64,000 nucleotides of DNA from Pseudooceanicola lipolyticus. GTDB lineage: Bacteria > Pseudomonadota > Alphaproteobacteria > Rhodobacterales > Rhodobacteraceae. The notes under the pieces were generated by a model that saw only the letters and a list, made by a program, of their open reading frames with translations, was not told where the DNA came from and did no database searches. Both the position numbers and the translations under genes were made by a program. Location: contig NZ_PGTB01000007.1 in NCBI RefSeq assembly GCF_002786325.1, forward strand, positions 21,062 through 85,061, written 5' to 3'. Positions 8,108-22,365 of this stretch are shown here, piece by piece; position 1 is the first letter of the stretch, and each line of letters starts with the position of its first letter.

Positions 8108-9454
8108 TCAAACACCAAATCGCTGCGCGATGGGAATGTCGCGGGTGGTGGTGTCGGAGGTGCTAGCGCACGGCAACGCTCGACACGATCGCAGCTCCGC
8201 AGCGTGCCTTCCCAGAATGACAAGCGCCGGCCACAGCATGTAGGCCTCGATTTCAATATTTTCCCCGAACGACAATAGGACCAAGGTCATCGAGATGCTC
8301 AGCGGCAGGTAGCCTCGGGGTGATCTGGCCGAGTCGACCAGCGACAGCAGCGTCTGCCATGCCAGGGGCACCAGGAGGGCGACAAAGCCGACCAGCCCCT
8401 TCACGAACAGCAGCCCCCACCAGGTGTGGTGGCTTCCGATCGGCATATATTCAACGAGATGCGGACCGGGCTGTACTGTGCCATGGCCGAACCAGAACGC
8501 TTCATTTTGCCAGCGCTCGCCCGCGATGCGCTGTAGGGTTTCACGGACACGGGTGCTGTCGGCGCGCGCGCCCTTGAAGGCGGCGATACCATCCTTGACC
8601 GATTGCAGCAGCGCAGCCCCAAGCACGGCCATGGTGGCGGAAATGGCAGCGAGAAGCTGCCAGGCCCAGCCTCGCAACAGCAACGGCACCAGGCGCGGTC
8701 CCAGCGTGCACGCAACCAGTCCGACAAGACCCATGCGCGATTTGGAAAGCAGCACCATCGCGGTGCCGGCGGCGATGCCAATCGCCCGCCACCGGATGTT
8801 TCGTTCTTCCATCGCAAAGCAGATCTGCAACACGCCCAGCAGCGCGGCAAAGGGCGACCATGGCGCGTAGAATTGCCAGCGTGGCGTCCAACTTGCCGGG
8901 TCCCAGGTGAAGAAATAGACCGAGAAATATTCGGGGCCGGGCCCGCCGATCGCTTTGAGTGGCGACGTGAACAGCTTTTCGGGCAGCCCGACATAGGGCG
9001 CGACGAACAGAACGGGCAGCAACGCAAGCGTCCACAAACCTACGATACACTGGGCGCGAATGATCACCTCGCGCCGGATCGGGAGGATGGCGCCGGCGAA
9101 GGGAAACAGCGCGAGCAGCGCCCACCCCTTGGCCCATCCGATCGAGGACTTGATGGTTTGTTTCAGCCCCAGGCCCCAGTCGAGATGACCGACCCAGAGC
9201 GCGACAAGCATAACCGTCATCCCTAAACACCATGCCATAACCACTGGCGGAACCGGGCCAGTGGCCTGGAGATCGCGGCGGATGGCCGGCCCGAGGTACA
9301 GGGACAGCGCCGCCAACCCGCCCAGCAACCAGGCCAGAACAGGCCCTGCCACGTAGAGCGCACCGACAAAGTACAGCGGCCAGGTCCAGACCAGTGTCCG
9401 GAAGATCATGGCCTCGGCCGGGTTGTGCGGCTGGATGTCAGTGCGCGCGTTCAT
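8108..9454 (-). CDS. Exopolysaccharide polymerase / O-antigen ligase-like membrane protein
   Basis: A polytopic inner-membrane protein of 448 residues with about ten hydrophobic segments and a large loop in the C-terminal half. The loop region GSHHTWWGLLFVKGLVG matches the conserved H-x-(7-9)-GL-G region of the Wzy_C/O-antigen ligase superfamily (ExoQ-like). The expected role is polymerising lipid-linked repeat units at the periplasmic face. I use the ATG at 9454 because it overlaps the stop of the chain-length gene (ATGA, 9454-9451), which implies translational coupling; an in-frame extension to 9574 would lie inside that gene. Whether it acts as polymerase or ligase cannot be told from sequence, but locus context favours polymerase. 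Confidence 0.85.
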   Translation of the reverse strand: MNARTDIQPHNPAEAMIFRTLVWTWPLYFVGALYVAGPVLAWLLGGLAALSLYLGPAIRRDLQATGPVPPVVMAWCLGMTVMLVALWVGHLDWGLGLKQTIKSSIGWAKGWALLALFPFAGAILPIRREVIIRAQCIVGLWTLALLPVLFVAPYVGLPEKLFTSPLKAIGGPGPEYFSVYFFTWDPASWTPRWQFYAPWSPFAALLGVLQICFAMEERNIRWRAIGIAAGTAMVLLSKSRMGLVGLVACTLGPRLVPLLLRGWAWQLLAAISATMAVLGAALLQSVKDGIAAFKGARADSTRVRETLQRIAGERWQNEAFWFGHGTVQPGPHLVEYMPIGSHHTWWGLLFVKGLVGFVALLVPLAWQTLLSLVDSARSPRGYLPLSISMTLVLLSFGENIEIEAYMLWPALVILGRHAAELRSCRALPCASTSDTTTRDIPIAQRFGV

Positions 9455-10932
9455 TCCGCGGCCATAAGGGGCGCGTGGATCGGCTGCACCGGGTTGTGCA
9501 ACAGCCGGGAGATCAATGATTTTCGAAGCCAGCCGAGAAGCAGGCCAAGCAAGAAACAAAATGTCGCGGCACAACCGGCTGCAACAGCCAGCAGACGTTT
9601 GGGGGAAGAGGGATCTGTAGGCAACGACGGGTCCTCCAATACCTGGACCAACGGATACGAGGCGTAGACATCGGTTTTGCTGGTCTGCGTTCGCGCCATT
9701 GCAGAAGCAAAAACAGCTTCGGCCACGGCGAAATCGCGCTGGAGGTCTTCCAGTTTCGCGGCCGGTTCGATCAGGCTCAGCTTGCGCGCTTCTGCGGCTT
9801 GCAATCGAATTGACATCGCCTGGTATTCTGCGGCCAGACCGGCGCGCTCGGCTTCCAGGGTCACAAGATCGCTCAACAACCCGGCGCGGCTGCCGACATG
9901 GCTGAGATCGAGATCTTCAAGCTCTGATGCCTTCAGCCCCGTCAGGGCGTGGGCCCGGTTGAAGGCCTCGTGTTTAGTGGCACGTTGGCCGGTCTCTGCC
10001 GCCAGCACTTCGGGGTGCTTGTTGCCATAGCGGCCGCGGGCCATGGACAGCGCAGCCGCCTGCTCCGACATCTGTTCGGTCAAGGTGGTGAATTCGGTGT
10101 CGGCATGAAGGCGGAGGGCCGCGGCCGCCAGATGGGGTTCGGTCCCGAGAGTGATTTTCAAAGCGGAGACAGCTTCGGTTTTTTCCTCCAGTTCGATCGC
10201 CAGTTCCGCCAGCGCCTGCGCCTGGCCATCGGTTTCAGAGACCAGTTCGTGATATTGAGCGGCCGAGATAAGACCGGTTTCGCGCTGAAGTCGCGAGATC
10301 TCATTGCGGGTGGAAAGCACCGATTGCCGGTATTCCTCGATCGCATCGCGCCCGCTGTCTTCGCGAGTGACCACCTCGTCATTGCGCAACGCCTCGATCT
10401 CGCTGAAAAACGCATCAAGCAAGGCCGCACCGCGCCGTTGGGCGTCTTCCGGCGAGTTGCCGGTGATCGAGATGTGAATAAGGCTGGTCTGGTCCACCAG
10501 CTCGATCCGCGCCTTGCCGAAATCTCGGGTCTTCATGTGCATGGCACCGGCCGCGGTATCCAGAATGCGACCGGCGCCAAGCAGACGCTTGTAGGTTTCG
10601 GTAGGGCTGACCGCATTATTGGAGAAGGCCGAATTGGCAAACGAGGATGCCTGCCCGATACGATCGAGGTTGACCGAAGCAGAGGCGCCCGATCCCGGCA
10701 GAATCAGAGACATGGTGCTGGTGTATTTCAGCGGCGCGGTTTGAAGGTAGCTGACGATCGGCGCCCATATGCAGAGGACGCCAATTGCAAACAGGCCGAC
10801 ATAGCGGGGCAGGCGCCCGGTATCATTGAGCCGCCCCCCGCAAAGCAGGCGGGCGGGTGACAGCTGGCGCAACGGCACTCGGACCAGACGCGGCAGAGAG
10901 AATTGATTCAATTTGAAATTCGGGCGTGGCAT
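9451..10932 (-). CDS. Polysaccharide chain-length / co-polymerase protein (Wzz/GumC type, no kinase domain)
   Basis: A 493-residue inner-membrane protein. One membrane segment lies near residues 45-65 and another near 455-475, flanking a long periplasmic region rich in predicted coiled coil (for example REDSGRDAIEEYRQSVLS, ISRLQRETGLI). This is the layout of polysaccharide co-polymerases, which set chain length and couple polymerisation to export. The cytoplasmic tail is only about 20 residues with no Walker motifs, so there is no BY-kinase domain here, and no separate kinase gene is seen in the locus. The gene is coupled to the polymerase gene by an ATGA overlap. A palindromic operator candidate lies 90 bases upstream of its start. 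Confidence 0.85.
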   Translation of the reverse strand: MPRPNFKLNQFSLPRLVRVPLRQLSPARLLCGGRLNDTGRLPRYVGLFAIGVLCIWAPIVSYLQTAPLKYTSTMSLILPGSGASASVNLDRIGQASSFANSAFSNNAVSPTETYKRLLGAGRILDTAAGAMHMKTRDFGKARIELVDQTSLIHISITGNSPEDAQRRGAALLDAFFSEIEALRNDEVVTREDSGRDAIEEYRQSVLSTRNEISRLQRETGLISAAQYHELVSETDGQAQALAELAIELEEKTEAVSALKITLGTEPHLAAAALRLHADTEFTTLTEQMSEQAAALSMARGRYGNKHPEVLAAETGQRATKHEAFNRAHALTGLKASELEDLDLSHVGSRAGLLSDLVTLEAERAGLAAEYQAMSIRLQAAEARKLSLIEPAAKLEDLQRDFAVAEAVFASAMARTQTSKTDVYASYPLVQVLEDPSLPTDPSSPKRLLAVAAGCAATFCFLLGLLLGWLRKSLISRLLHNPVQPIHAPLMAAE

Positions 10933-11022
10933 TTGCGTTTCTCCTTGCCCAGGGTTCTACACCTGGCGCCAGGATCATGCGCGGCTGCGGAAGGATGTCT
11001 GCAGGGGGCAATCGAGAATGGA

Positions 11023-11040
11023 ACTACCCCATCGGATAGG
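11023..11040 (-). promoter_or_regulatory. Candidate operator, site 1 (degenerate) upstream of the co-polymerase/polymerase operon
   Basis: ACTACCC-CATC-GGATAGG matches the consensus CCTATCC-N4-GGATAGG at 12 of 14 arm positions, with a perfect right half. It lies 90 bases upstream of the start at 10932 and directly after the response-regulator stop codon. Three better copies lie at 11822, 13567 and 18085. Confidence 0.6.
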
Positions 11041-11652
11041 TCAGAACAGGCCCTTGTCACGCGCGATCATCGCGGCCTGCGTCCGGTTTGACGCGCCGAT
11101 CTTGCGATACAGCGTTTTCACATGCAGCTTGACCGTCGGTTCACGAATATCCAGATCGCGCGCGATTTCTTTGTTCGATTTGCCCTCTGTCAAACCTTGC
11201 AGGACCTCGATCTCGCGCTGCGAGAGGGATTTCGCCAAGGGATGTTCCGGCTCGTTCTCCGCGGCGCGAAGAAAATCCAGTGGCGCATATTGTTCGCCCA
11301 TGGCCATGAAGCGGACGGCGTTGATCAGCGACTTGGCAGACAGCGTTTTCGGCAGGAACCCCGCGGCTCCGCTGGCCAGCACCTCTTCGGCAACTTCGCG
11401 TTTTGCGGTGCCCGAAATGATCGCAACGCGCTGTCCGCCATCCATACCCATGATGCGTTCAAGCCCGGCTAGACCGTTCATCCCGGGCATGGAATAGTCC
11501 AGCAGGACCAGGTCGAACGAGTCCTTGGCTACCAGTTCCTCGGCGCTGGCCAGATCTGGCGCAGTCACCGTTTCGATGCCGCCCTCGCTTTCCAGGAACA
11601 GGACCAGCGTATCGCGCAGCAACTCGTGGTCGTCGGCGATCAGTATTCGCAT
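11041..11652 (-). CDS. NarL/FixJ-family response regulator, probable exopolysaccharide regulator
   Basis: A cytoplasmic two-component regulator of 203 residues. The receiver domain (1-120) has the acidic pair DDHE at 7-10, phospho-acceptor Asp52 in LLDYSMPG and Lys102 in FLPKTLS. A LuxR-type helix-turn-helix follows at about 139-195 (LSQREIEVLQGLTEGKSNKEIA, then TVKLHVKTLYRKIGA; quoted in two pieces). The ATG at 11652 has a strong Shine-Dalgarno (GGAGGGAG); an in-frame extension to 11907 would run through the divergent promoter and is rejected. It lies inside the exopolysaccharide locus next to palindromes of the size such dimers bind. The hybrid kinase at 14212-16803 is the natural phosphate donor through its HPt domain. 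That pairing is inference. Confidence 0.92.
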   Translation of the reverse strand: MRILIADDHELLRDTLVLFLESEGGIETVTAPDLASAEELVAKDSFDLVLLDYSMPGMNGLAGLERIMGMDGGQRVAIISGTAKREVAEEVLASGAAGFLPKTLSAKSLINAVRFMAMGEQYAPLDFLRAAENEPEHPLAKSLSQREIEVLQGLTEGKSNKEIARDLDIREPTVKLHVKTLYRKIGASNRTQAAMIARDKGLF

Positions 11653-11821
11653 TTCGCTCCCTCCTGTCGCACCGGACTTCTGTGAAAAGTTGCGTTGCTG
11701 GATCAGCATATGTGTGTCTCCGGAATTCGGCATCAACAAATCGAAGAACTTGACTCGATTTTCAGATGTCGCAGTAAGCACGAACAAATTGGCAAAAACA
11801 GGGCGCCCACGGATACCGCGG

Positions 11822-11837
11822 CTATCCAACCGGATAG
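11822..11837. promoter_or_regulatory. Candidate operator, site 2 between response regulator and sugar transferase genes
   Basis: Perfect 6-bp inverted repeat CTATCC-AACC-GGATAG. Its centre falls exactly midway between the divergent start codons at 11652 and 12007 (169 bases to each), so one site could serve both promoters and autoregulate the regulator. Confidence 0.7.
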
Positions 11838-12006
11838 GTGCCTGCAATCCGATCTCAAACATTGCGATCCCTTGGGAGGAAAAGGCTAGTTGATCAGCCC
11901 CGATCACTCCTCCTTTGACCCCGCTTACTGTCCTCTCGGGCTTTTGAAAGCTTGGGTGAATTCATTGCAAGTAACTGGAAACGCAATCAAATGAGGAGCG
12001 TTCCCA

Positions 12007-13422
12007 GTGACCTATCTCAGCGACTTTCAGTTCTCCGGCCCGGCACCCACTGCCGACACCGCGCGCGCGTCCAAGCGGGTCGAAGCCCCGTCTTTCGGCC
12101 ATGTCACCCTATTCGGGCTGCCCGTTGTCTCGGCTTCGACGCCGGCCGTTGTGGAACGGCTTCTGGCACCCGGACGACGCAGCCGGGTTGCATTTCTGAA
12201 CGCCCATTGCGGGAATGTGATGGCGCGCAACCCGGACTATGCGGATGCGCTGCATACGGCGGATATGGTGCTGCCCGATGGCATCGGGGTCGAACTGGCA
12301 GCGCGCATGGGAGGGGACACGATCCGTGAAAATCTCAATGGGACAGATTTCGTTCCCGCGCTGTTGGCCGAGGCGGGGAGGCGGGGCCTGAGTGTCTTCC
12401 TGTTCGGTGGTCGGCCCGGCGTCGCCAAGGATGCCGCCGACAAGTTGTGTTTGAAGATTCCAGGTCTGCGCGTGGTCGGAACGCGCGACGGGTTTGAGGG
12501 CTCGGCCGATACCGGCGCCGCGATCGCGGCGATCAACCGGGCGCGTCCCGACATCGTCCTTGTCGCCATGGGTGTGCCCCAGCAAGATCTGTGGTTGGCG
12601 CGCAATGCGCGGCACCTCGATGCACGCATCACATTGGGTGTCGGCGCGCTGTTCGATTTTCTCTCCGGCCGTGTCCGACGTGCCCCGAAGATTGTGCGCA
12701 AAGTGAAATGCGAGTGGATTTGGCGATTGGCGATGGAGCCGCGTCGAATGGCCAAACGCTATCTGATCGGCAATTTCTCATTTCTCGCCCGCTCTGCAAT
12801 CCACGCCATCGCCAGGACCGATCGGATCGCTGTCGCGCGCCGGGGTCTTGACCTGACGATTGCCCTGACTGCCCTGGCTGTTTTGCTGCCGTTTTTTATC
12901 TGCCTGGCCCTTGCGATCCGGCTGGACAGCCGCGGGCCGGTCCTGTTCCGACAGACCCGGATCGGGCGCGACGGTCAACCATTCGAGATGCTGAAATTCC
13001 GGTCGATGTATGCGGATGCCGAAGCGCAGCGCGCGGCTCTCTTGCTGCATTCGGATCGCGACGGCGTGTGTTTCAAATCGCGTAGCGATCCGCGGATCAC
13101 GCGGATCGGCAGGATTATGCGCCGCTTCTCGATCGACGAATTGCCGCAAATCCTGAACGTGCTGCGTGGCGAGATGGCAGTTGTCGGCCCACGGCCGGCC
13201 TTGCCAGAGGAAGTTCTGGCCTATCACGACCGCGCGCGCGAACGCCTTGAGGCGAAACCCGGACTGACCGGTATTTGGCAGGTTTCAGGCCGTGCCGAGA
13301 TCGGTTTTGAGAAGATGATCGACATGGACCTCGCTTATGTCCGGTCGCGGACGATCGTTCTCGACCTCATGCTTGTCTTGCTGACATTCCGCGCAGTGGT
13401 CGGAGGTCGTGGCGCCTATTGA
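12007..13422 (+). CDS. Fused GT26 glycosyltransferase and polyprenyl-phosphate sugar-1-phosphate transferase
   Basis: A 471-residue two-domain enzyme. Residues ~55-235 match the WecG/TagA/CpsF family (GT26): FLNAHCGNVMARN, DMVLPDGIGVELAARM, FLFGGRPGVA and MGVPQQDLWLARN. One hydrophobic span at ~280-305 leads to a bacterial sugar transferase domain (WcaJ/ExoY type): RIGRDGQPFEMLKFRSM, RRFSIDELPQILNVL, VGPRPALPEE and KPGLTGIWQVSGR. The C-terminal part would load the first sugar phosphate onto undecaprenyl phosphate, and the N-terminal part would add the second sugar, so one polypeptide may carry out the first two steps of repeat-unit assembly at the inner membrane. The ATG at 12007 follows GAGGAG. 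It is transcribed divergently from the response regulator, with a shared operator candidate between them. Confidence 0.92.
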   Translation: MTYLSDFQFSGPAPTADTARASKRVEAPSFGHVTLFGLPVVSASTPAVVERLLAPGRRSRVAFLNAHCGNVMARNPDYADALHTADMVLPDGIGVELAARMGGDTIRENLNGTDFVPALLAEAGRRGLSVFLFGGRPGVAKDAADKLCLKIPGLRVVGTRDGFEGSADTGAAIAAINRARPDIVLVAMGVPQQDLWLARNARHLDARITLGVGALFDFLSGRVRRAPKIVRKVKCEWIWRLAMEPRRMAKRYLIGNFSFLARSAIHAIARTDRIAVARRGLDLTIALTALAVLLPFFICLALAIRLDSRGPVLFRQTRIGRDGQPFEMLKFRSMYADAEAQRAALLLHSDRDGVCFKSRSDPRITRIGRIMRRFSIDELPQILNVLRGEMAVVGPRPALPEEVLAYHDRARERLEAKPGLTGIWQVSGRAEIGFEKMIDMDLAYVRSRTIVLDLMLVLLTFRAVVGGRGAY

Positions 13423-13564
13423 CGACGCCAGCCGGCGGTGAAGGTGCGTGGATCACCTCCAGCCCTGGAACGAGGGGCAAGGGGACAAACCCTAAGTCGT
13501 CGGACTGAAAACCTCGCTTGGTCAGACCTATCGCTTCACGGGCGGTAAGTTGCCCGCACACCGC

Positions 13565-13586
13565 CACCTATACGATCGGATAGGTG
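13565..13586. promoter_or_regulatory. Candidate operator, site 3 upstream of the SUOX-like/kinase operon
   Basis: CCTATAC-GATC-GGATAGG (13567-13584) matches the 14 arm positions of the consensus at 13. Outer CACCTAT/ATAGGTG arms extend the symmetry to 13565-13586. The site ends 76 bases before the ATG at 13663. Confidence 0.65.
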
Positions 13587-13662
13587 CCCTGCACCGATGC
13601 GCCGATGACGCGGCACCGACAGCCGTGGCATAAACCACTTGGTCACATTCGGAGAACTTCAC

Positions 13663-14178
13663 ATGTCTTGCTTCAACCTGCCAAAGCTTGTCTTGGCTTC
13701 TCTTTTTCTCATCGCCCCTTTACGCCTTTATGCTGCGGAACTCGCTGCGCCGGAGGGCGAAGTCATTCTGGTCATCAGTGGCGACATCGGCGTGACCAAC
13801 GTTGGAGATACTGCGCAGTTCGACCGGGACATGCTGGAACAGCTCGGCGTGGTTACGATCGAGACCACCACGATATGGACAGAGGGACTGCAAACTTTTA
13901 CTGGCGTGCCGTTGGCCCAACTGATGGACGTGGTGCAGGCCCGCGGGAAAACCCTCAGCGCAACCGCCATCAATGATTACGCCGTGGACATACCCGCCGA
14001 AAATTGGGGTGAAACATGGCCGATCGTCAGTTTTCTTCACAATGACGAACCCATGTCGATTCGCGACAAGGGACCCCTCTGGATCGTCTACCCCTACGAC
14101 TCGAACCCCGATTTTCAGACCGAAGTGATTTATTCTCGTAGTATTTGGCAACTGGATCGGATCATCGTGAAGGACTGA
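13663..14178 (+). CDS. Secreted SUOX-like (molybdopterin-binding fold) protein, possible sensor partner
   Basis: A 171-residue protein with a Sec signal peptide (MSCFNLPKLVLASLFLIAP, likely cut near LYAAELA), so periplasmic. The mature part matches the small oxidoreductase molybdopterin-binding domain proteins of Rhodobacterales: EVILVISGDIG, FTGVPLAQLMD, INDYAVDIPAE and KGPLWIVYPYD. These stand-alone domains lack the conserved cysteine that ligates molybdenum in sulfite oxidases, and I see none here apart from Cys3 in the signal peptide, so catalysis is doubtful. It precedes a hybrid histidine kinase by about 30 bases, so it may be a ligand-binding partner of the kinase's periplasmic domain. 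The ATG at 13663 has GGAG upstream; an in-frame start at 13639 is less likely. Confidence 0.8.
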   Translation: MSCFNLPKLVLASLFLIAPLRLYAAELAAPEGEVILVISGDIGVTNVGDTAQFDRDMLEQLGVVTIETTTIWTEGLQTFTGVPLAQLMDVVQARGKTLSATAINDYAVDIPAENWGETWPIVSFLHNDEPMSIRDKGPLWIVYPYDSNPDFQTEVIYSRSIWQLDRIIVKD

Positions 14179-14211
14179 GCTTCGAAGACATCGGGTTAAA
14201 GGGAGGTGCGC

Positions 14212-16803
14212 TTGGCTGGCACTGAATCAAACTGGCGACAGCGCACCGTTTGGACGCGCACCTCCGCAATCGTCCTTTTGCTGGTGTTTTGCATGGGGAC
14301 AGTGGCCAGTATGGCTTGGCTCGTGCTGCGCGAAATCGATGAATTGAGCACTGCCAACTCGGACAACCTGCAATGGAGTCTGGCACAGGCAGATGTCGAG
14401 TTCCTGAAATTCGAACTGGCCGTGAACGAGGCCTTGCGGAATCCGGAAAATCTCCGCGAGGTTCGGCGGCGGTTCGATATCTTCTACAGCCGAATGCAGA
14501 CGCTGCAGCGTGGGGAGGTGTTTCAGGCGCTGAGGTCCGAACCCGAATTCGAACAGTCCCGTCAAGGAATTGAAAACTTTCTCTCTACAAGCGTGTCGCA
14601 GATTGACGGTACCGATCAGGCTCTGGTCGATGCGCTTCCTGCAATGGCGTCAGCTGCCAAGCAGGCCGCCGCGGACGTTCGCCAGATTTCGCTGTCAGGC
14701 TTGGCGGCCTTTGCCAAGCTCTCCGATCAGCGCCGCGAGGAAGTTGTGCAGAGCTTGGTCCGTGTGTCCATTGTGTTGGCCGTGCTTTTGGGCGGTCTGT
14801 CTCTTTTGGCTTATTCATTCAACCGGCTTTACCGGTCTGCCGAGCAGAATGCGCTGGCTGCGCAACGCGCAAGCACGCGCAGTCGCACGGTTGTCGAAGC
14901 CGCAGCCGATGCGATCATAGTTTGTGACGACGACGGTCACGTCGTTGAGATGAACGCGGCCTCCCAAAATCTGTTCGGGTATTCCCGCGACGAAACGTTC
15001 GGATGCCCGGCGCTTGAGTTGTTTCAACCGCCAAGCGTTCGGGGCGCAGTTCTCGATAGGCTGATCAAGGCGACAGAAGACACAGAGAACCCTGAGGCTC
15101 ACCAACGTCAGGTCGAAACCATTGCCGTTGATCGGGCAGGGCGCGAATTCCCTGTCGAAATTTCGATGGCCAAGGCCGAAGCGGCGGGGGAACGGGTATT
15201 TGTCGCGCATATCCGGGATATTTCCAACCGCAAGGCCGCCGAGAAAGGGCTGACCGAGGCGCGCGACCGGGCACTGGCGGGCGAAAAGGCCAAAGCCGAG
15301 TTCCTGGCCTTGATGAGCCATGAAATGCGTACGCCGCTGAATGGGTTGCTAGGCACCATGGACCTGCTGCGCGACCACAAGTTGACCGAGCGACAAACCG
15401 ATTTGCTGGATCATATGCAGTCGTCAGGGCACTTGCTTTTGGGCTTGGTGAACGATGTCTTGGACCTGTCGAAATTCGAGGCAGGCAAGCAGCGGGCAGA
15501 AACGCGGCCCTTCAATATCACACGTCTGCTGGATGGCGTGGTTGAAACGACAATGAGCCTGGCCGCGGCAAGTGGAAATTCAGTCGCTTGGTCTTGGCAA
15601 GGAGAACCGGATGCACAGGTTCTCGGCGATTCCAGACGTCTGCGGCAGGTGCTTCTGAATCTGGTGAGCAATGCGATCAAATTTACCCGTGCGGGAACGA
15701 TCGATATCGAGGTGGAGCGTCTGCCGGGGCAGGAGGATCTGGTCGAATTTCGGGTGATCGATACGGGGATCGGCATCGCCCCGGAAAATCTGGCACGCAT
15801 ATTCAAGGATTTCGAAACGCTGGATTCTTCTTATGCACGGCGGGCCGGGGGAACCGGTCTGGGACTTGGCATCTCCAAGCGTTTCGTCGGCCTGATGGGG
15901 GGCGAGATCGGCGTCGAAAGCGAACCGGGCGAGGGCAGCATGTTCTGGCTGCGCGTCCCGCTTCCCGTCGAGGAGCAGGGGTCGTCGGATACGACCAACA
16001 CTGCCAAAAAGACCCCGGATGCCGACGGGGTCGCCCGGCCTTTGTCCATTCTTCTGGTCGAGGACAACGAAATAAACAGATTTGTTGCCCGCGCCATGAT
16101 CGAAGCCGAGGGTCATACCGTGACCGAAGCCGTTAACGGCAAAGCCGGCGTCGAATGGGCGCAGGCGCAGGAATTCGATGTGATCTTGATGGATATCTCT
16201 ATGCCCGTGATGGACGGGCAGGAGGCTGCCCGGGCCATCCGCGCGGGCAATGGCGCTTCGGCCAATAGCCCGATCGTGGCGGTCACGGCCCATGCGCTGC
16301 CAGAAGAGATCGCCGGATTTAAGGCGGCGGGGATGAAACACTGCATCAGCAAACCGATCGACCGCAAAGCTTTGCTTGGGCTGCTGAATGAGGTGGCAAT
16401 CCGGACGGAGCATCCGGAACCAGGCCCCACGGCGCAGGAGGCTTTGCTGCTGGACACGAATATTCTGAATGAATTGCGGGACACGCTTGGAGCAACCCAG
16501 ACCGCACGGCTGATCGGAAAATGTATCAACGAGCTTGATACCTCCATTCAGGAGTTAACGGAAACCGCCACGGATGATCGAGCGTTGGGTTCCACCGCGC
16601 ACAAATGCGCCGGATCGTGCAGCTCTTTCGGGATGGTCGCGATGCGGCGGGCGCTGGGGCGGATCGAAACTCAAGCGGCCAACGGGTCCGTCAAGCGGCA
16701 AGACCTACAGGCGCTCGCGTCGGTCTGGGAAGACAGCAAGCTGGCTCTGCAGGTTTGGGAGGCGACTGGAGAACCCGTCAGTCGACTAACGCGCCCAGCG
16801 TGA
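14212..16803 (+). CDS. Hybrid sensor histidine kinase (TM-sensor-TM-PAS-HisKA-HATPase-REC-HPt)
   Basis: An inner-membrane kinase of about 863 residues. In numbering from a GTG at 14206: membrane span ~19-41, periplasmic sensor ~42-187, membrane span ~188-210, PAS ~225-340, HisKA with His372 in MSHEMRTPLNG, HATPase with N box (LLNLVSNAIKF) and G boxes (DTGIGI, GTGLGLGI), receiver with Asp663 in LMDISMP, and a C-terminal HPt with His799 in STAHKCAGS. It therefore carries a full phosphorelay up to the HPt and needs a separate response regulator, for which the NarL-type protein at 11041-11652 is the obvious candidate. I prefer the TTG at 14212 because GGGAGG at 14201-14206 is its Shine-Dalgarno; the GTG at 14206 overlaps that site. 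The 3' end overlaps the convergent wza-like gene by 26 bases. Confidence 0.93.
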   Translation: MAGTESNWRQRTVWTRTSAIVLLLVFCMGTVASMAWLVLREIDELSTANSDNLQWSLAQADVEFLKFELAVNEALRNPENLREVRRRFDIFYSRMQTLQRGEVFQALRSEPEFEQSRQGIENFLSTSVSQIDGTDQALVDALPAMASAAKQAAADVRQISLSGLAAFAKLSDQRREEVVQSLVRVSIVLAVLLGGLSLLAYSFNRLYRSAEQNALAAQRASTRSRTVVEAAADAIIVCDDDGHVVEMNAASQNLFGYSRDETFGCPALELFQPPSVRGAVLDRLIKATEDTENPEAHQRQVETIAVDRAGREFPVEISMAKAEAAGERVFVAHIRDISNRKAAEKGLTEARDRALAGEKAKAEFLALMSHEMRTPLNGLLGTMDLLRDHKLTERQTDLLDHMQSSGHLLLGLVNDVLDLSKFEAGKQRAETRPFNITRLLDGVVETTMSLAAASGNSVAWSWQGEPDAQVLGDSRRLRQVLLNLVSNAIKFTRAGTIDIEVERLPGQEDLVEFRVIDTGIGIAPENLARIFKDFETLDSSYARRAGGTGLGLGISKRFVGLMGGEIGVESEPGEGSMFWLRVPLPVEEQGSSDTTNTAKKTPDADGVARPLSILLVEDNEINRFVARAMIEAEGHTVTEAVNGKAGVEWAQAQEFDVILMDISMPVMDGQEAARAIRAGNGASANSPIVAVTAHALPEEIAGFKAAGMKHCISKPIDRKALLGLLNEVAIRTEHPEPGPTAQEALLLDTNILNELRDTLGATQTARLIGKCINELDTSIQELTETATDDRALGSTAHKCAGSCSSFGMVAMRRALGRIETQAANGSVKRQDLQALASVWEDSKLALQVWEATGEPVSRLTRPA

Positions 16804-17992
16804 ACACACCAATCAATCGCCCGATTTCTCCCAGGTTGGTGACCCCGCTGTCATAACAGGCGATGGCATCTCCGGGGAGCACATAGGGGTCATAGTCATC
16901 ACGATCCGCGCGGGTGCGCAGTTCTTCGACGCGCCGTTCGATCACGACGGAAACACCCGTGACGGGATTGCGTGAGAATAGCGCTGCCGATCGGTCTGCA
17001 CTGGTGGCTCGGGCGCCGCCAACACAGTTCGCGTCGATCACTGCCTGCAAATAGCGGGTTCCATATGGCACCTCGCGCACGCCTTGCGAAACCGCCGCCG
17101 CGGCGTTGTTGTTCGCGGGCTGGGTCAGGTTCGACATGTAAAGCGATACGCCCGGCGGACTGACCGGGCTCGGCGTCATCAGTTCGTCCTGAAAACACTG
17201 CCGTGACGGAACATAAACCTCGTCTCCGGTCACCAGCATGATGTCATCGAAATGTCGCCCGTCGACGGCGCCACGGAGGTCGACAATATGATTGGTTCCT
17301 GCCCGGGTGATGCGCACGGCGGACAGGTCCGCATCGGGGCGCACTCCGCCGGCACTGCGCAGCGCGACCGACAGGTTGCGGCCTTCCGTCGAGGCGCCCA
17401 AGGCGGCCTGCCGGCGCGAGTCCACCTGATCGCCCTGAACCCCGCCGATATCGCTGGCCTGCGGATCGAAGACGGCACCGGAAACCCCGATGCGTACGGG
17501 GGCAAAATCCATCACCAGCAGAGACAGGGCTGGTTCGTCGACATAGAAGCCACCCGCGACAAGCTTGCGGCGGATCTCGGCCGCGACCTGCTCGGTCCGC
17601 CGGCCCTGTGCCGGGATCGGGTCGAGAAACGGTATCTTCAGCATCCCGTCACGAGAAACGACGAACTCACCGGTGAAGGTCTCGTCATTGGGCACGCGCA
17701 GATCGATCAGATCGCCGCGTGACAGCAGCTCGCCGCGCAAAGCGTCGGGCAGATAGGTGCGAAGCTTACCAGCACCCGCCGAACCGCTGTAAGGTTTGCA
17801 CCGCGATGCGTTCATCAGGGCCGAGCGCAAAGTCGGACTGTCGGCGGCGGGGCGTTCCAGATCCCTATATTGCGCCTGGTAGGACTCGCCGCGCGACACT
17901 GCCTCGATATTGGCGGGGGTTTTGCCCCCACACGCGGCCAAGGCAATTATCGCCAGTGTGCTTGCCGCATTCCGGGCACTGGTGCGGGCCAT
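16778..17992 (-). CDS. Polysaccharide export outer-membrane lipoprotein (Wza type)
   Basis: A 404-residue lipoprotein forming the outer-membrane exit channel for the polysaccharide. The signal sequence ends in the lipobox LAAC, with Cys21 as the lipidated residue. A polysaccharide-biosynthesis/export domain follows (LLSRGDLIDLRVPNDETFTG, MLKIPFLDPIPAQG), then SLBB-like segments (VRIGVSGAVFDP, RNLSVALRSAGGVRPDADL, DDIMLVTGDEVYVPS). The ATG at 17992 is chosen because it gives a proper lipoprotein signal; an in-frame start at 18070 does not. The gene is transcribed toward the kinase gene, with overlapping 3' ends. An operator candidate (18085-18102) lies 92 bases upstream. Confidence 0.9.
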   Translation of the reverse strand: MARTSARNAASTLAIIALAACGGKTPANIEAVSRGESYQAQYRDLERPAADSPTLRSALMNASRCKPYSGSAGAGKLRTYLPDALRGELLSRGDLIDLRVPNDETFTGEFVVSRDGMLKIPFLDPIPAQGRRTEQVAAEIRRKLVAGGFYVDEPALSLLVMDFAPVRIGVSGAVFDPQASDIGGVQGDQVDSRRQAALGASTEGRNLSVALRSAGGVRPDADLSAVRITRAGTNHIVDLRGAVDGRHFDDIMLVTGDEVYVPSRQCFQDELMTPSPVSPPGVSLYMSNLTQPANNNAAAAVSQGVREVPYGTRYLQAVIDANCVGGARATSADRSAALFSRNPVTGVSVVIERRVEELRTRADRDDYDPYVLPGDAIACYDSGVTNLGEIGRLIGVFTLGALVD

Positions 17993-18084
17993 GAATTTAC
18001 TGCTCCGGGTTTTTCTCGTCTTGGTTGATCGCGAATCTAAACGCAGTGGTGACACTACGTCCACAAGCACGCGCGGCTAGGCGT

Positions 18085-18102
18085 CCTATCCAACAGGATA
18101 GG
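18085..18102. promoter_or_regulatory. Candidate operator, site 4 (perfect) between exporter and flippase genes
   Basis: Perfect 7-bp inverted repeat CCTATCC-AACA-GGATAGG. It sits in the divergent promoter region, 92 bases from the exporter start (17992) and 111 from the flippase start (18214). It is the best match among the four sites. Confidence 0.75.
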
Positions 18103-18213
18103 CCGATAGTCCGTTGCTTCTTTGCACTGTCCGCGCGCGCCTCGGACAGGCTGAGCCATCTGGTTTAGGCATGACCCAGCCGGAATAGGCCCCTCAGTCT
18201 CGGAAGTGCCACC

Positions 18214-19452
18214 ATGTTCAAGACCAATCGCATCGGTCCCTTTCTTCGCCACCTGATGGCCTATCTGCTGTCGGAAATGGCTGCCAAGGCGTCACGGCTG
18301 CTGGTTGTCATCGCCGTCGCGCGTTCGATGGATGCGGCGGCCATCGGGGTTGCCGCAATTGCACTGGCCGCCGCAGATATTTTCAAGTCTCTGACTGAAA
18401 ACGGCGCAGGCCAGCGCATCATCGCCGCACCTGCGGACCGGCTGGACGCGACCTGCCGGACAGCCAGCCGCATTTTCTGGGTGTGGTGCCTCGGGCTGTT
18501 CGCAATTCAGCTGGTGATCGGCGCGGTGATCTGGCGGATCAGCGGCGAAGCCACGCATTTTGTTTTACTCGCAATCCTGGCGGGGGAATACCTCTTCATG
18601 CCGGCCGGCCTGGTGCAATGCGCGCTGGCGATGCGGGCCGGAAAGCTGCGCCAGACTGCGGCGATCTCTGCCGGTCAGGTGGTCAGTGCCAATACCGCGT
18701 CGGCGGTGCTGGCCTTCGTTTTTCCGGGGCCTCTTGCCCTGGTCCTGCCTCGGCTGTTGGCGGCCCCGGTCTGGTTGGTCTGCATGCGCCGTTTGCATCC
18801 CTGGCGCCCGGACCCGCGCGTTGCTCTGGCCCCGGTTACCCCCTTTATCAGGTATGGTTGGGCGGTTCTGGGCGTTGAAGTGGTCAAGGCGCTACGGCTG
18901 CAAGCCGACAAGCTGGTCATCGGCGCTATGGCCGGGACGGAAGTGCTGGGGCTCTATTTCATGGCGTTCAACGCCGGTCTCGGCCTGGCGAATTCCTTCG
19001 CCCAGGCGTTTGCGATCGCCTTGTTCCCGCATCTCTGTTCGGCCGAGAACCGCGACCGCGCCCTGCGCGGGGCGCTTGGGCTCAGCACGGCGGTGATTTC
19101 CGTCATCGTGGTTCTTCAGGCTTTGGCTGCGCCCTACTATGTGCCTGTCCTTTTCGGCGACGGCTGGGACGGGATCGCCGAGGTGGTGTCGATCCTTTGC
19201 CTGGCAGCCATCCCTGCGGTGATCTGGAGCGGTGCGGCACAATGGCTGCGCAGCCAGGAACGGCCGCAATTCGAATTTGTCGTCACCGTCGTGGTCACGC
19301 TGGCGCTGGTCGCGAACACGGTCCTGATGATCCCTCACGGGCTTACCGCCGTGGCCTGGGGCTATCTGATCATCGCCACTGTGACCCAGATTGGCGCAGC
19401 TGTTCCGACCCTTGCGTCGGCTTTCCGCAACCCCATTGCAAAGGTCGCCTGA
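18214..19452 (+). CDS. Polysaccharide flippase-like membrane protein (Wzx/MOP type)
   Basis: A 412-residue protein with about ten to twelve hydrophobic segments and short charged loops, in the style of the oligosaccharide flippase family that moves lipid-linked repeat units across the inner membrane. Supporting parts include the N-terminal LLSEMAAKASRLLVVIAVAR and the mid-protein LQADKLVIGAMAGTEVLGLYF, which resembles the conserved 'D..ig...g...lG.Y' region of these transporters. It is the first gene of a four-gene run: the next start codon is one base past its stop. Family identity is good. The substrate is inferred from the locus. Confidence 0.87.
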   Translation: MFKTNRIGPFLRHLMAYLLSEMAAKASRLLVVIAVARSMDAAAIGVAAIALAAADIFKSLTENGAGQRIIAAPADRLDATCRTASRIFWVWCLGLFAIQLVIGAVIWRISGEATHFVLLAILAGEYLFMPAGLVQCALAMRAGKLRQTAAISAGQVVSANTASAVLAFVFPGPLALVLPRLLAAPVWLVCMRRLHPWRPDPRVALAPVTPFIRYGWAVLGVEVVKALRLQADKLVIGAMAGTEVLGLYFMAFNAGLGLANSFAQAFAIALFPHLCSAENRDRALRGALGLSTAVISVIVVLQALAAPYYVPVLFGDGWDGIAEVVSILCLAAIPAVIWSGAAQWLRSQERPQFEFVVTVVVTLALVANTVLMIPHGLTAVAWGYLIIATVTQIGAAVPTLASAFRNPIAKVA

Positions 19453-19453
19453 T

Positions 19454-20368
19454 ATGCCCCGGTTTTCGATCATCATGCCCTGCTACAACGCGGCGGAAAC
19501 GCTGATGGATACGCTGGATAGCCTGCGTTCGCAGAGCTTTTCAGATTGGGAAATGCTGTGCATCGATGACGGTTCGACCGATGCAACCACAAGGTTGCTG
19601 ACCGATGCGGCGGCACAGGATCCGCGCATACGTCTATTGGACAATCCGGAACGGGGGCCAAGCGCGGCGCGGAATGTGGCGATCACAGAGGCAAATGGTG
19701 ACCTCCTGGCTTTTTGCGATGCCGACGATCTGTGGATGGCAGACAAGTTGAACCGTATGAACGCGGCCTTTGCCGATGGCACGGTGGCTGCCGCCTATGC
19801 CCGGATCGCGTTTTTTGACGGTGCGCGGACGCGTTCGCAATCGACCGTGCGCGCCGGTGATCTGACGGTGCCGGCATTGCTGGGCGAAAATCCGGTGTGC
19901 ACCATGTCCAACCTGGTGGTGCGCCGCGACGTCTTTGCCGCCACCGGCGGGTTCAACACCAAAATGGTTCACAACGAGGATCTGGAATGGTTGGTCCGGT
20001 TGATTGCGCAGGGATACCGGCTGAGCGGGATTGACGAATGCCTGGTGCGATATCGCACCAGCGTGACCGGATTGTCCGCTGATCTGGAGGCCATGCAATC
20101 CGGTCGACAAGCGGCGCTGGCAACCGCGGCGCATTACGGATTTTCCACCAACCCCTGCGCAGAGGCGGTCTATTATCGCTATCTCGCGCGTCGGGCGTTG
20201 CGCGTCGGAGCGCCGGGTCGGGACGCGTTGCGCTTTGCCCTGGCCGGCATTGCAACCAGCCCTCGGGGCTTTTTTTCCGACTTCCGCCGCGGCGGTCTCA
20301 CGCTGTTGGGGGCCGTTGTCGGCTCGGCAATGCCGGCACCTCTCCACCGCGCTCTTTTTGCAAGCTGA
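19454..20368 (+). CDS. Family 2 glycosyltransferase
   Basis: A 304-residue GT-A fold transferase, probably on the cytoplasmic face of the inner membrane. The N-terminus FSIIMPCYNAAETL, nucleotide-binding CIDDGSTDATTRLL and metal-binding FCDADDLW are classical GT2 features. The acceptor-side region has HNEDLEWLVRLIAQG, where the ED pair is the likely catalytic position. The ATG at 19454 is one base after the flippase stop; a longer frame from 19391 would overlap that gene heavily. It is a paralogue of the next gene: both have a YLARRA segment near the same place. The sugar transferred cannot be read from the sequence. Confidence 0.9.
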   Translation: MPRFSIIMPCYNAAETLMDTLDSLRSQSFSDWEMLCIDDGSTDATTRLLTDAAAQDPRIRLLDNPERGPSAARNVAITEANGDLLAFCDADDLWMADKLNRMNAAFADGTVAAAYARIAFFDGARTRSQSTVRAGDLTVPALLGENPVCTMSNLVVRRDVFAATGGFNTKMVHNEDLEWLVRLIAQGYRLSGIDECLVRYRTSVTGLSADLEAMQSGRQAALATAAHYGFSTNPCAEAVYYRYLARRALRVGAPGRDALRFALAGIATSPRGFFSDFRRGGLTLLGAVVGSAMPAPLHRALFAS

Positions 20369-20381
20369 AAGGAACCAAGCC

Positions 20382-21365
20382 ATGCCCAAGGCCACGATCG
20401 TCGTCCCGGCATATAACGTTGCCACCACCCTGGCGGACACCCTTGCAAGCCTATGTGCCCAGACCTTTGCCGATTTCGAGATCATCGTCGTCGATGATGG
20501 CTCGTCGGACCGCACAGTCGCTGTTGCGCGCAGTCTGGGCGACCGACGCATTCGGGTCGTACAGCAGCCCAACCGTGGCCTGGCTGGCGCCCGCAACAGC
20601 GGCATTGCGCAAGCGCGCGGCGAATATATCGGCTTTTGTGATGCGGATGATTTGTGGCGCCCGACCAAGCTGGCGGCGCATGTCGCCCACCTGAATTCCA
20701 ACCCGGTCGTAGGCCTGAGCTTTTCCGGCTCTGAGCTGATCGACGACGCGGGCAATCCGCTCGGGCTGGCTCAGCGTCCGCGCCTGAAGCGGATCACGGC
20801 GGCGCATGTGTTTCTGCGCAACCCGGTTGGCAACGGGTCGGCCGCGGTGATGCGCCGAGCGGCGTTGGACGACATCGCATGGCGCCCCGCCCGCGAAACG
20901 CAGCGGGACTGGTGGTTCGATGAAAGCTTCCGTCAGTCCGAGGATATCGAATGCTGGCTGCGCCTGGCGCTGACGACCGACTGGCAGATCGAAGGCGTCG
21001 ACGGGCTGCTGACCCGCTATCGCATCAGTTCAGGAGGGTTGTCGGCCGGCACCGACACCCAGCTTGCGACCTGGGAGCGCATGGTCGAGAAGCTTAGCCC
21101 GATCGCGCCGCAATTCATGGCGGCGCATACGCCGGCGGCGCGCGCCTATCAGTTGCGTTATCTCGCGCGTCGGGCAATCAGTTCGGGTGATGTCCCATCG
21201 GCCTGGCGCAACGTTCAGGCTTCGATGCGCTGTTCGCTCCACCCGCTGCTGAGCGAACCACTCAAGACGCTCAGCACCCTGATTGCGACCAGTGTGTTGG
21301 CGGCCTTCGGTCCGGCACCGGTTGCTGCCTTGCGTCGCATTTCCGCCAGCAGAACCCGCGCCTGA
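20382..21365 (+). CDS. Family 2 glycosyltransferase (paralogue of the preceding one)
   Basis: A 327-residue GT2 enzyme with ATIVVPAYNVATTL at the N-terminus, VVDDGSSDRTVAVAR for nucleotide binding, FCDADDLW as the metal-binding motif and SEDIECWLRLAL as the likely catalytic region. It starts at 20382 after the Shine-Dalgarno GAAAGGAACC, which recurs almost identically before the next gene. It follows its paralogue by 13 bases in the same operon, so both probably extend the same repeat unit with different sugars. The paralogy suggests a local duplication followed by divergence. Confidence 0.9.
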   Translation: MPKATIVVPAYNVATTLADTLASLCAQTFADFEIIVVDDGSSDRTVAVARSLGDRRIRVVQQPNRGLAGARNSGIAQARGEYIGFCDADDLWRPTKLAAHVAHLNSNPVVGLSFSGSELIDDAGNPLGLAQRPRLKRITAAHVFLRNPVGNGSAAVMRRAALDDIAWRPARETQRDWWFDESFRQSEDIECWLRLALTTDWQIEGVDGLLTRYRISSGGLSAGTDTQLATWERMVEKLSPIAPQFMAAHTPAARAYQLRYLARRAISSGDVPSAWRNVQASMRCSLHPLLSEPLKTLSTLIATSVLAAFGPAPVAALRRISASRTRA

Positions 21366-21387
21366 TTTCATGAAAGGAACCAATGCC

Positions 21388-22365
21388 ATGTTGCGTATCG
21401 CCCATCTGATAGACGACACCCAGCCCGGTGGTGTCATGCGCTATCTCGATTTCCTCGCCACCAGCAGCGAACTCACCGGTTTGGCCGATCACCAGGTGAT
21501 CCCGGTTTCGCGCATCAGGCCCGCGGCAAAGCCGATCGAGGCCGATCTCATCGTGTCGCACTTGACCATCACCTGGCGTGGGCTGCCGGGGCTGATGCTG
21601 CTGCGCGCCAGTTATCCGGGCACGCCAATCTATCATGTCGAACACAGCTATTGCGGAGGGTTTGCCGCTGCAAATGTCACCGCGCATGGCCGGTTTCGAA
21701 GCCTGCTGGGCAGTGGATACAGCCTGTTCGACCGGGTTGTGGCCGTCAGTACGGTCCAGGCCGACTGGATGCGCCGGTTGGACCTGATCGCGGCGAAGAG
21801 GTTGACGGTGATACCACCTTGCGTGGACCTCGGCGCGTTCCGGCAAATATCGGCGCCAATTGGCCCGGTCCGCCGGATCGGGGCGATCGGCCGGTTTGAT
21901 CGCCAGAAGGGCTTTGACATCCTGATCCAAGCTTTTCGCTCCGTCCCCGGCGAAGACCTGGAATTGCTGATTTTCGGCGATGGACCCGAAGCGGAACGGC
22001 TGCACCAACTCGGGGCAGCGGATCATCGGGTGCGCTTTCCCGGCTTCGCAGCCAATCCCGCCGATGCCATAGCGCGATGTGACGCCGTCGTGATGCCGTC
22101 GCGCTGGGAGCCGTTTGGCCTGGTTGCGCTGGAAGCCAGGTCAGCGCAGCGCCCATTGATGGTGACGGCAGTTGACGGTCTTCGCGATCATGTCGCCATG
22201 GGGGCGATCCCGGTCCGCGGTCTTGCGGTGGAAAACTGGACCGAAGCGTTAAGCGATCTCGTGGAGCACCAGAATGCCCTGACTTTGTCCGGGGAGGCGG
22301 TAGCATCGATCGTGGAACCGGAGGTGCGCACGCGTCGCGGCTGGTGCGACTTGTTGAGCGGCTAA
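21388..22365 (+). CDS. Family 4 glycosyltransferase
   Basis: A 325-residue GT-B transferase. The N-terminus IAHLIDDTQPGGVMRYLDF fits the GT4 acceptor-domain start, and the C-terminal half carries GAIGRFDRQKGFDILIQAF and MPSRWEPFGLVALEA, the nucleotide-sugar-binding part with the E-x7-E type glutamates. It is the last gene of the four-gene operon. The ATG at 21388 has the same GAAAGGAACC ribosome-binding site as the gene before it; an in-frame ATG at 21370 overlaps that site and is less likely. With the two GT2 enzymes and the GT26 domain, the locus encodes enough transferases for a repeat unit of about four or five sugars. Confidence 0.9.
   Translation: MLRIAHLIDDTQPGGVMRYLDFLATSSELTGLADHQVIPVSRIRPAAKPIEADLIVSHLTITWRGLPGLMLLRASYPGTPIYHVEHSYCGGFAAANVTAHGRFRSLLGSGYSLFDRVVAVSTVQADWMRRLDLIAAKRLTVIPPCVDLGAFRQISAPIGPVRRIGAIGRFDRQKGFDILIQAFRSVPGEDLELLIFGDGPEAERLHQLGAADHRVRFPGFAANPADAIARCDAVVMPSRWEPFGLVALEARSAQRPLMVTAVDGLRDHVAMGAIPVRGLAVENWTEALSDLVEHQNALTLSGEAVASIVEPEVRTRRGWCDLLSG

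Follow-up and report, generated by a model that had tools for sequence, protein, structure and literature searches.

What controls the exopolysaccharide locus of Pseudooceanicola lipolyticus (Rhodobacteraceae)? Bacteria of this group are common marine surface colonisers and, to our knowledge, the triggers of extracellular polysaccharide production in these bacteria are poorly mapped. The locus lies in a stretch of 64,000 nucleotides of contig NZ_PGTB01000007.1 (positions 21,062 to 85,061), hereafter the window, and its promoter regions carry copies of a palindrome, CCTATCC-N4-GGATAGG. The present analysis, in which the sites, their conservation, their register and the protein domains were computed, suggests, with a probability that we estimate at about 0.7, that this palindrome is the operator of a response regulator encoded in the locus. 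A phosphorelay made of a pterin-binding protein of the PruR family, a hybrid kinase and this regulator would activate the operons of the sensor and of the exopolysaccharide machinery. The features are listed in Table 1.

Searching the window with up to three mismatches revealed four copies of the palindrome, all of them intergenic. This confirms the initial annotation, which had reported one copy per promoter region of the locus, an invariant right half GGATAGG and no such palindrome elsewhere in the window; three of its four intervals were right, the other one (11822-11837) being one base short at each end (11821-11838). Taken alone, this count is unremarkable, with a mean of 1.51 in shuffled sequences and four copies reached in 5 of 100 shuffles. 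The signal stands out at zero or one mismatch and on the genome-wide scale: the genome (5.23 Mb) contains 11 places with up to two mismatches, and all three places with at most one mismatch are found within the exopolysaccharide locus. The eight two-mismatch places include one in the locus and seven elsewhere; the latter correspond to the background level, since the reversed control pattern gives eight places at up to two mismatches. This genome-wide count, suggested as a check along with the initial annotation, revealed no comparable density in coding regions. The four copies are real and not due to chance.

The loci of relatives were represented by the best 80 of at least 530 confirmed stretches encoding relatives of the regulator (63-80% identity; 1,521,094 bases). 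The palindrome is conserved across more than 20 genera, which we take to belong to the Rhodobacteraceae/Roseobacteraceae, the other loci coming from unclassified Rhodobacteraceae and Alphaproteobacteria. It should be emphasized that the 80 loci do not each represent an independent genome: one assembly provided both L099 and L152, another both L156 and L159, while L083 (from Pseudoroseicyclus tamaricis) and L153 correspond to G018 and G015 of the genome survey described below. The 80 loci contain 53 exact palindromes, 128 with up to one mismatch and 174 with up to two (in 44, 59 and 65 loci, respectively), compared to means of 0, 0.2 and 3.0 and maxima of 0, 2 and 15 for 60 permuted-arm palindromes in the same loci. 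None of the 174 sites falls inside the seven tracked genes, and 14 of them are located more than 600 bases from every tracked gene start. Counting sites with up to two mismatches, and only those loci in which both genes flanking the gap were identified, a site is present in the gap between (i) the regulator and chain-length genes in 34 of 42 loci, (ii) the regulator and sugar-transferase genes in 25 of 44 (the weakest class), (iii) the sugar-transferase and PruR genes in 41 of 42 (exact in 27) and (iv) the exporter and flippase genes in 34 of 42. None was found in 134 control junctions (PruR-kinase, 0/65; kinase-exporter, 0/39; chain-length-polymerase, 0/30); as these are shorter (medians of 142, 111 and 63 bases versus 249-821 for the site gaps), the permuted palindromes offer the fairer comparison. 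Across relatives, the identity of the arms (0.74-0.94) largely exceeds that of the flanks (0.26-0.44), the former being inflated because sites were picked by their match, a bias from which the gap counts are free. Enrichment in the promoters of the locus and conservation while flanks diverge, both named beforehand as support for a shared operator, were observed, the conservation being strong; two outcomes that would have refuted it, a similar density in coding regions and a lack of conservation in relatives, were not.

The initial annotation had proposed a NarL-type dimer encoded in the locus as the ligand. In the Pfam scan, the regulator carries only REC and GerE domains; it combines a receiver bearing a phosphorylatable Asp with a GerE helix-turn-helix, as in NarL/FixJ proteins, and lacks the autoinducer-binding domain of LuxR proteins of the quorum-sensing type. 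The phosphorylation site D52 is invariant in 17 of 17 aligned relatives and the recognition helix EPT-V/I-KLH is found in 79 of the 80 regulators, L154 having KLY. NarL sites are heptamers in a 7-2-7 arrangement, whereas the sites described here are 7-4-7 dyads accompanied by phased half-sites. NarL (PDB 1a04), the best PDB sequence match of the regulator (E 1e-21), shares with it the REC and GerE domains and the conserved phosphorylation Asp.

The co-occurrence of the regulator and the palindrome (up to one mismatch) was surveyed in 61 genomes, including 37 of the same family (among them the window genome). The palindrome is present in 17 of 19 family genomes that encode a close relative of the regulator, compared to two of 18 that do not (Fisher p 1.7e-6); close relatives were defined by E <1e-50, a cut set once the values were known, the next best value in the family being 3.7e-34. 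The reversed control pattern is found in 4/19 and 4/18 of them (p 1.0); counts at one mismatch are noisy, this pattern having 12 places in the 61 genomes, all in the 37 family members. The site lies near the regulator or exopolysaccharide genes in 12 of the 17 positive genomes (6 kb away in G035). An exporter orthologue was detected in seven of the 61 genomes, all of which possess a regulator relative. Genome G006 carries its exopolysaccharide genes on one contig, with an exact and a one-mismatch dyad, and its regulator-PruR-kinase module on another, with a one-mismatch dyad. Among the 80 loci, a site with up to two mismatches occurs in 60 of the 65 with a PruR gene and in five of the 15 where none was found (some being short contigs), and also in 17 of 23 regulator-PruR gaps from modules where no sugar-transferase gene was found. 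Because the palindrome is conserved at its loci and tracks it across genomes, the regulator is the best candidate ligand, as initially proposed.

The PruR-like protein, presumed periplasmic, matches PDB entries 7kos, entitled Pterin Binding Protein (E 4e-42, residues 25-169), 7rkb (6e-41) and 7kp2 (3e-19); scanned as a longer frame (13639-14178), it has no Pfam match. Its gene lies immediately upstream of the kinase gene on the same strand, and the pair is adjacent at 65 of the 80 loci. The WX7E motif of the kinase is WSLAQADVE (residues 57-65), two more WX7E strings being found at 38 and 581, and the kinase resembles the TorS model (E 3e-117, below the curated cutoff). When the 69 kinases encoded at the 80 loci were scanned with crude patterns, HisKA was detected in 59, the receiver Asp in 58, Hpt in 62 and WX7E within the first 240 residues in 62, chance accounting for some of the latter. 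A PruR homologue encoded upstream on the same strand, a partner with WX7E in its periplasmic region and cytoplasmic TorS/BaeS-like kinase domains are the features of PruR-DTB systems, a published kind to which, judging from sequence, this pair belongs. In the review describing them (PMC13259868), a PruR homologue is encoded directly upstream of a WX7E-bearing kinase, for example in Ruegeria pomeroyi. The pair described here has the same organization, with PAS, HisKA, HATPase and REC domains; the Hpt domain is present here too, and the locus adds a candidate regulator, operator and targets. The PruA-PruR-DcpA system of Agrobacterium tumefaciens, as presented in the same review, likewise associates PruR with a membrane WX7E partner and controls adhesive surface polysaccharides, but DcpA works through cyclic di-GMP (c-di-GMP), whereas the locus studied here encodes a kinase and a DNA-binding response regulator and has a candidate operator.

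All 174 sites share the inner C7 and G12, conservation drops outward and the spacer prefers G-W-W-C. At the PruR promoter, and in part elsewhere, the dyad tends to be preceded by A and followed by T, its fullest form, best seen at the PruR promoter, being ACCTATCCGWWCGGATAGGT. For register profiles, a single site within 260 bases was retained for each locus and class, the dyad occupying positions 1-18. A sequence resembling the half-site CCTATCC reappears in them at +21/22 and, for the chain-length and flippase promoters, again at +42/43; the flippase-class peak at +42 scores 5.13, compared to 3.24 for the largest of 60 null maxima. Peaks of -10-like hexamers occur at +61 to +63 for PruR (short layout) and at +82/83 for the chain-length and flippase genes (long layout). 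The scores of the latter two are 2.14 and 2.34, versus largest null maxima of 1.86 and 2.00; pooling the long layout gives 2.24 versus 1.70 and, after redundancy reduction (25 sequences), 2.34 at +82 versus 2.10. For the PruR promoter, the reduced set (30 sequences) gives 2.15 at +62 versus 2.02. In either layout, the -10 follows the start of the last half-site by about 40 bp, the two layouts differing by two helical turns. Overall, the long layout is well supported and the short layout is marginal. Agreement with the -35 consensus is low (flippase-class score of 1.79 of a possible 4.5 at +59). Outside this layout, a TTGC lies between half-sites at +30 of the dyad in flippase-class promoters (18114-18117 in the window), the pattern TTG[AC] being found there in 41% of 34 loci.

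The following mechanism can be proposed, DNA binding, the sign of control, the extent of the operons, phosphate transfer and the role of pterin as the signal all being inferred. The PruR-like protein and the DTB-type hybrid kinase would sense the signal and pass phosphate by HisKA, REC and Hpt to D52 of the regulator. Dimers of the phosphorylated regulator would bind the dyad and load more subunits on the half-sites located about 21 and 42 bp downstream, the last one immediately preceding a poor -35, where activators usually bind; the array therefore points to activation. The promoter with a dyad and one half-site would drive pruR and the kinase gene, providing positive feedback, and those with a dyad and two half-sites would drive the chain-length and flippase-glycosyltransferase operons, while dyads of divergent gaps would additionally serve the regulator, sugar-transferase and exporter genes. 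With dyads at all these promoters, exopolysaccharide assembly would therefore be switched as one unit. The analysis supports the earlier shared-operator interpretation and widens it to a conserved regulon that includes a pterin-binding sensor; that interpretation had overlooked the pterin-binding gene that precedes the kinase and the longer phased array.

Several observations weigh against this proposal. Fifteen of the 80 regulator loci lack a site with up to two mismatches, PruR being found beside five of them, and in five of the 17 positive genomes (G001, G013, G020, G024 and G026) the sites are distant from the regulator. The unlinked exopolysaccharide locus of G074 (L193) has only a three-mismatch site, and no site with up to two mismatches was found in four related-regulator modules, L073, L077 and L079, which include PruR, and L069, where no PruR was detected. 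Concerning the register, the -10 peak of the PruR promoter did not exceed the null before reduction (1.87 versus 1.92), and that of the pooled short group slightly exceeds it unreduced (1.71 versus 1.66) but not reduced (1.69 versus 1.73). The flippase set alone loses significance after reduction (2.35 versus 2.50), and no significant -10 peak is seen in the register profiles when the exporter or the regulator direction is taken alone. The sugar-transferase direction departs from the layout, its half-site peak being at +63 and no -10 peak exceeding the null, and the extra half-sites and -10 boxes of the window itself are weak. As for the regulators of L069, L073, L077 and L079 (52-59% identity), they are encoded beside a DTB-like kinase and carry EVT in place of EPT in their recognition helix, a change also found in L074, L075, L076, L078 and L080, all of which have sites; these four regulators possibly use a different operator.

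The same operator and regulator could also act by repression, or in both ways, with relief by the sensor. Site conservation is silent on the sign of control, divergent gaps with a single dyad are compatible with either sign, and both the marginal register of the short group and the misfit of the sugar-transferase direction leave room for it. However, the -10 peaks are found about 60-80 bp downstream of the dyad and are not covered by it, and the half-site array stops just upstream of a -35 of low consensus agreement, where an activator is expected; repression thus appears rather unlikely.

The palindrome could also belong to a regulator encoded elsewhere, such as a quorum-sensing LuxR-type protein, whose boxes (CTGNCC-N4-GGNCAG) are similar. 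These dyads are of similar size and CTGNCCNNNNGGNCAG, which we take to be the CviR consensus, shares the inner CC-N4-GG. This string occurs together with CviR in three papers. However, the arms differ here (CCTAT), and the proposed ligand carries a receiver and not the acyl-homoserine-lactone domain of such receptors. Furthermore, modules split from the exopolysaccharide genes retain the site alongside the regulator-PruR pair. Among the tracked conserved genes, a DNA-binding domain was found only in the response regulator, although no genome-wide search for other regulators was made. Overall, a foreign regulator seems improbable.

The preferred reading, an operator bound by the regulator of the locus, is even less threatened by an RNA role of the inverted repeat as a terminator or attenuator hairpin. 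Its form and the position of copy 1 directly after a stop codon would fit such a role, as would compensating changes in four of 46 two-mismatch sites (about one expected), but the other 42 do not compensate, conservation peaks at the inner CC/GG and falls outward, the sites precede the -10 peaks, the phased half-sites have no partner arms, in keeping with protein binding, and the converging kinase-exporter gap, where a terminator would be expected, is devoid of sites; this role is highly improbable. Chance or a repeat-element artefact, to which the window count at three mismatches, just modestly above shuffles, might point, is practically dismissed by the permuted palindromes, with which own-genome and gap counts concur.

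Further targets may exist. Where modules lack the full exopolysaccharide locus, some sites adjoin glycosyltransferase genes (L100, L104, L179 and L185), and in G035 a site is flanked by a mannose-nucleotide gene on one side and a glycosyltransferase gene on the other. In L123 and L153, an operator copy lies right past the regulator stop codon (10617 and 10616) and a gene encoding a receiver-SpoIIE phosphatase is found downstream of the regulator gene (10893-12170 and 10734-12005), possibly a partner-switching branch of the regulon. In L138, an exact operator just past the regulator gene (10616) is followed, about 1 kb on, by a gene encoding a GGDEF-EAL protein (11656-12987), a possible link to c-di-GMP. 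In L158, an exact operator (10617) separates the regulator gene from a convergent gene encoding a large protein with Hint and RTX repeats (10952-13411). Four solitary exact matches are located outside of modules (G001 C7, G003 C1, G068 C72 and G071 C106), next to genes without common theme. Four per about 270 Mb is somewhat above the rough uniform-base estimate of one; they were not counted as targets, although some may be real.

The locus itself appears to be of the Wzx/Wzy type, with an initiating sugar transferase, a flippase, an exporter and a co-polymerase, the last one detected below cutoffs. The conserved frame at the polymerase position shows 62-82% identity in relatives, while neither Pfam nor NCBIfam yielded a match for it. 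Close to where the cluster ends, positions 23584-25260 (minus strand) encode a protein that combines CARDB domains with RTX calcium-binding repeats and a C-terminal region of the serralysin type.

Table 1. Features of the exopolysaccharide locus (window positions; + numbers are counted from the start of the dyad).
Feature	Position	Strand	Remarks
Conserved frame, possibly polymerase	8108..9574	-	No Pfam/NCBIfam match; conserved beside GNVR
Chain-length (co-polymerase) protein, GNVR	9451..10932	-	PF13807 weak, TIGR03007 partial; both below cutoff
-10-like TAGAAC, GNVR promoter	10954..10959	-	+82 of operator 1; class peak +82/+83
Extra half-site GACATCC, weak (4/7)	10993..10999	-	+42 of operator 1; class peak +42/+43
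Candidate operator copy 1	11023..11040	-	2 mismatches; directly past regulator stop codon, facing chain-length (GNVR) gene
NarL/LuxR-type response regulator, proposed ligand	11041..11652	-	203 aa; REC PF00072, GerE PF00196
Candidate operator copy 2	11821..11838	.	1 mismatch; between divergent regulator and sugar-transferase genes
WecG/TagA glycosyltransferase fused to bacterial sugar transferase (initiating enzyme)	12007..13422	+	PF03808, PF02397
Candidate operator copy 3	13567..13584	+	1 mismatch; upstream of PruR-kinase pair
-10-like CATAAA	13629..13634	+	+63 of operator 3; class peak +61 to +63
PruR-family pterin-binding protein	13663..14178	+	171 aa, presumed periplasmic; PDB 7kos, 7rkb, 7kp2
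Hybrid sensor kinase, DTB type	14206..16803	+	WX7E region, PAS, HisKA, HATPase, REC, Hpt
Polysaccharide exporter, Poly_export/Wza type	16778..17992	-	PF02563
Candidate operator copy 4	18085..18102	+	0 mismatches; between divergent exporter and flippase genes
Extra half-site ACTGTCC (5/7)	18126..18132	+	+42 of operator 4; class peak +42
GAC of -35-like element	18145..18147	+	+61 of operator 4; GAC there in 65% of 34 flippase-class sites
Flippase, Wzx type	18214..19452	+	PF13440
GT2 glycosyltransferase, first of downstream series	19391..20368	+	PF00535
GT2 glycosyltransferase	20235..21365	+	PF00535
GT1/GT4-type glycosyltransferase	21283..22365	+	PF13692, PF00534

In the main text of PMC13259868, the terms 'response regulator' and 'exopolysaccharide' are absent, and neither a response regulator nor an operator or target is named for the DTB type in its passages on 'DTB' and 'output'. 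Among the titles listed in searches of the open-licence literature, which did not cover the primary PruR-DTB paper, none concerned this palindrome or operator, the single paper found on exopolysaccharide and LuxR-type regulators in Rhodobacteraceae being about quorum sensing, and no joint treatment of a pterin binding protein, a histidine kinase and exopolysaccharide was found in it. Within this literature, the operator and the output arm appear to be undescribed, their parts being of known kinds. We give about even odds to the broader proposal that this locus reveals the missing output arm of PruR-DTB systems: in Rhodobacteraceae/Roseobacteraceae, extracellular or periplasmic pterin would act through the phosphorelay on the regulator, which, by an undescribed 20-bp dyad and phased half-sites, would directly and positively switch the exopolysaccharide machinery and its own sensor, with no need for c-di-GMP. 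A concrete candidate operator, regulator, sensor pair and list of target promoters, tied to PruR-DTB systems, are now at hand, and the control of polysaccharide production by pterins becomes directly testable.

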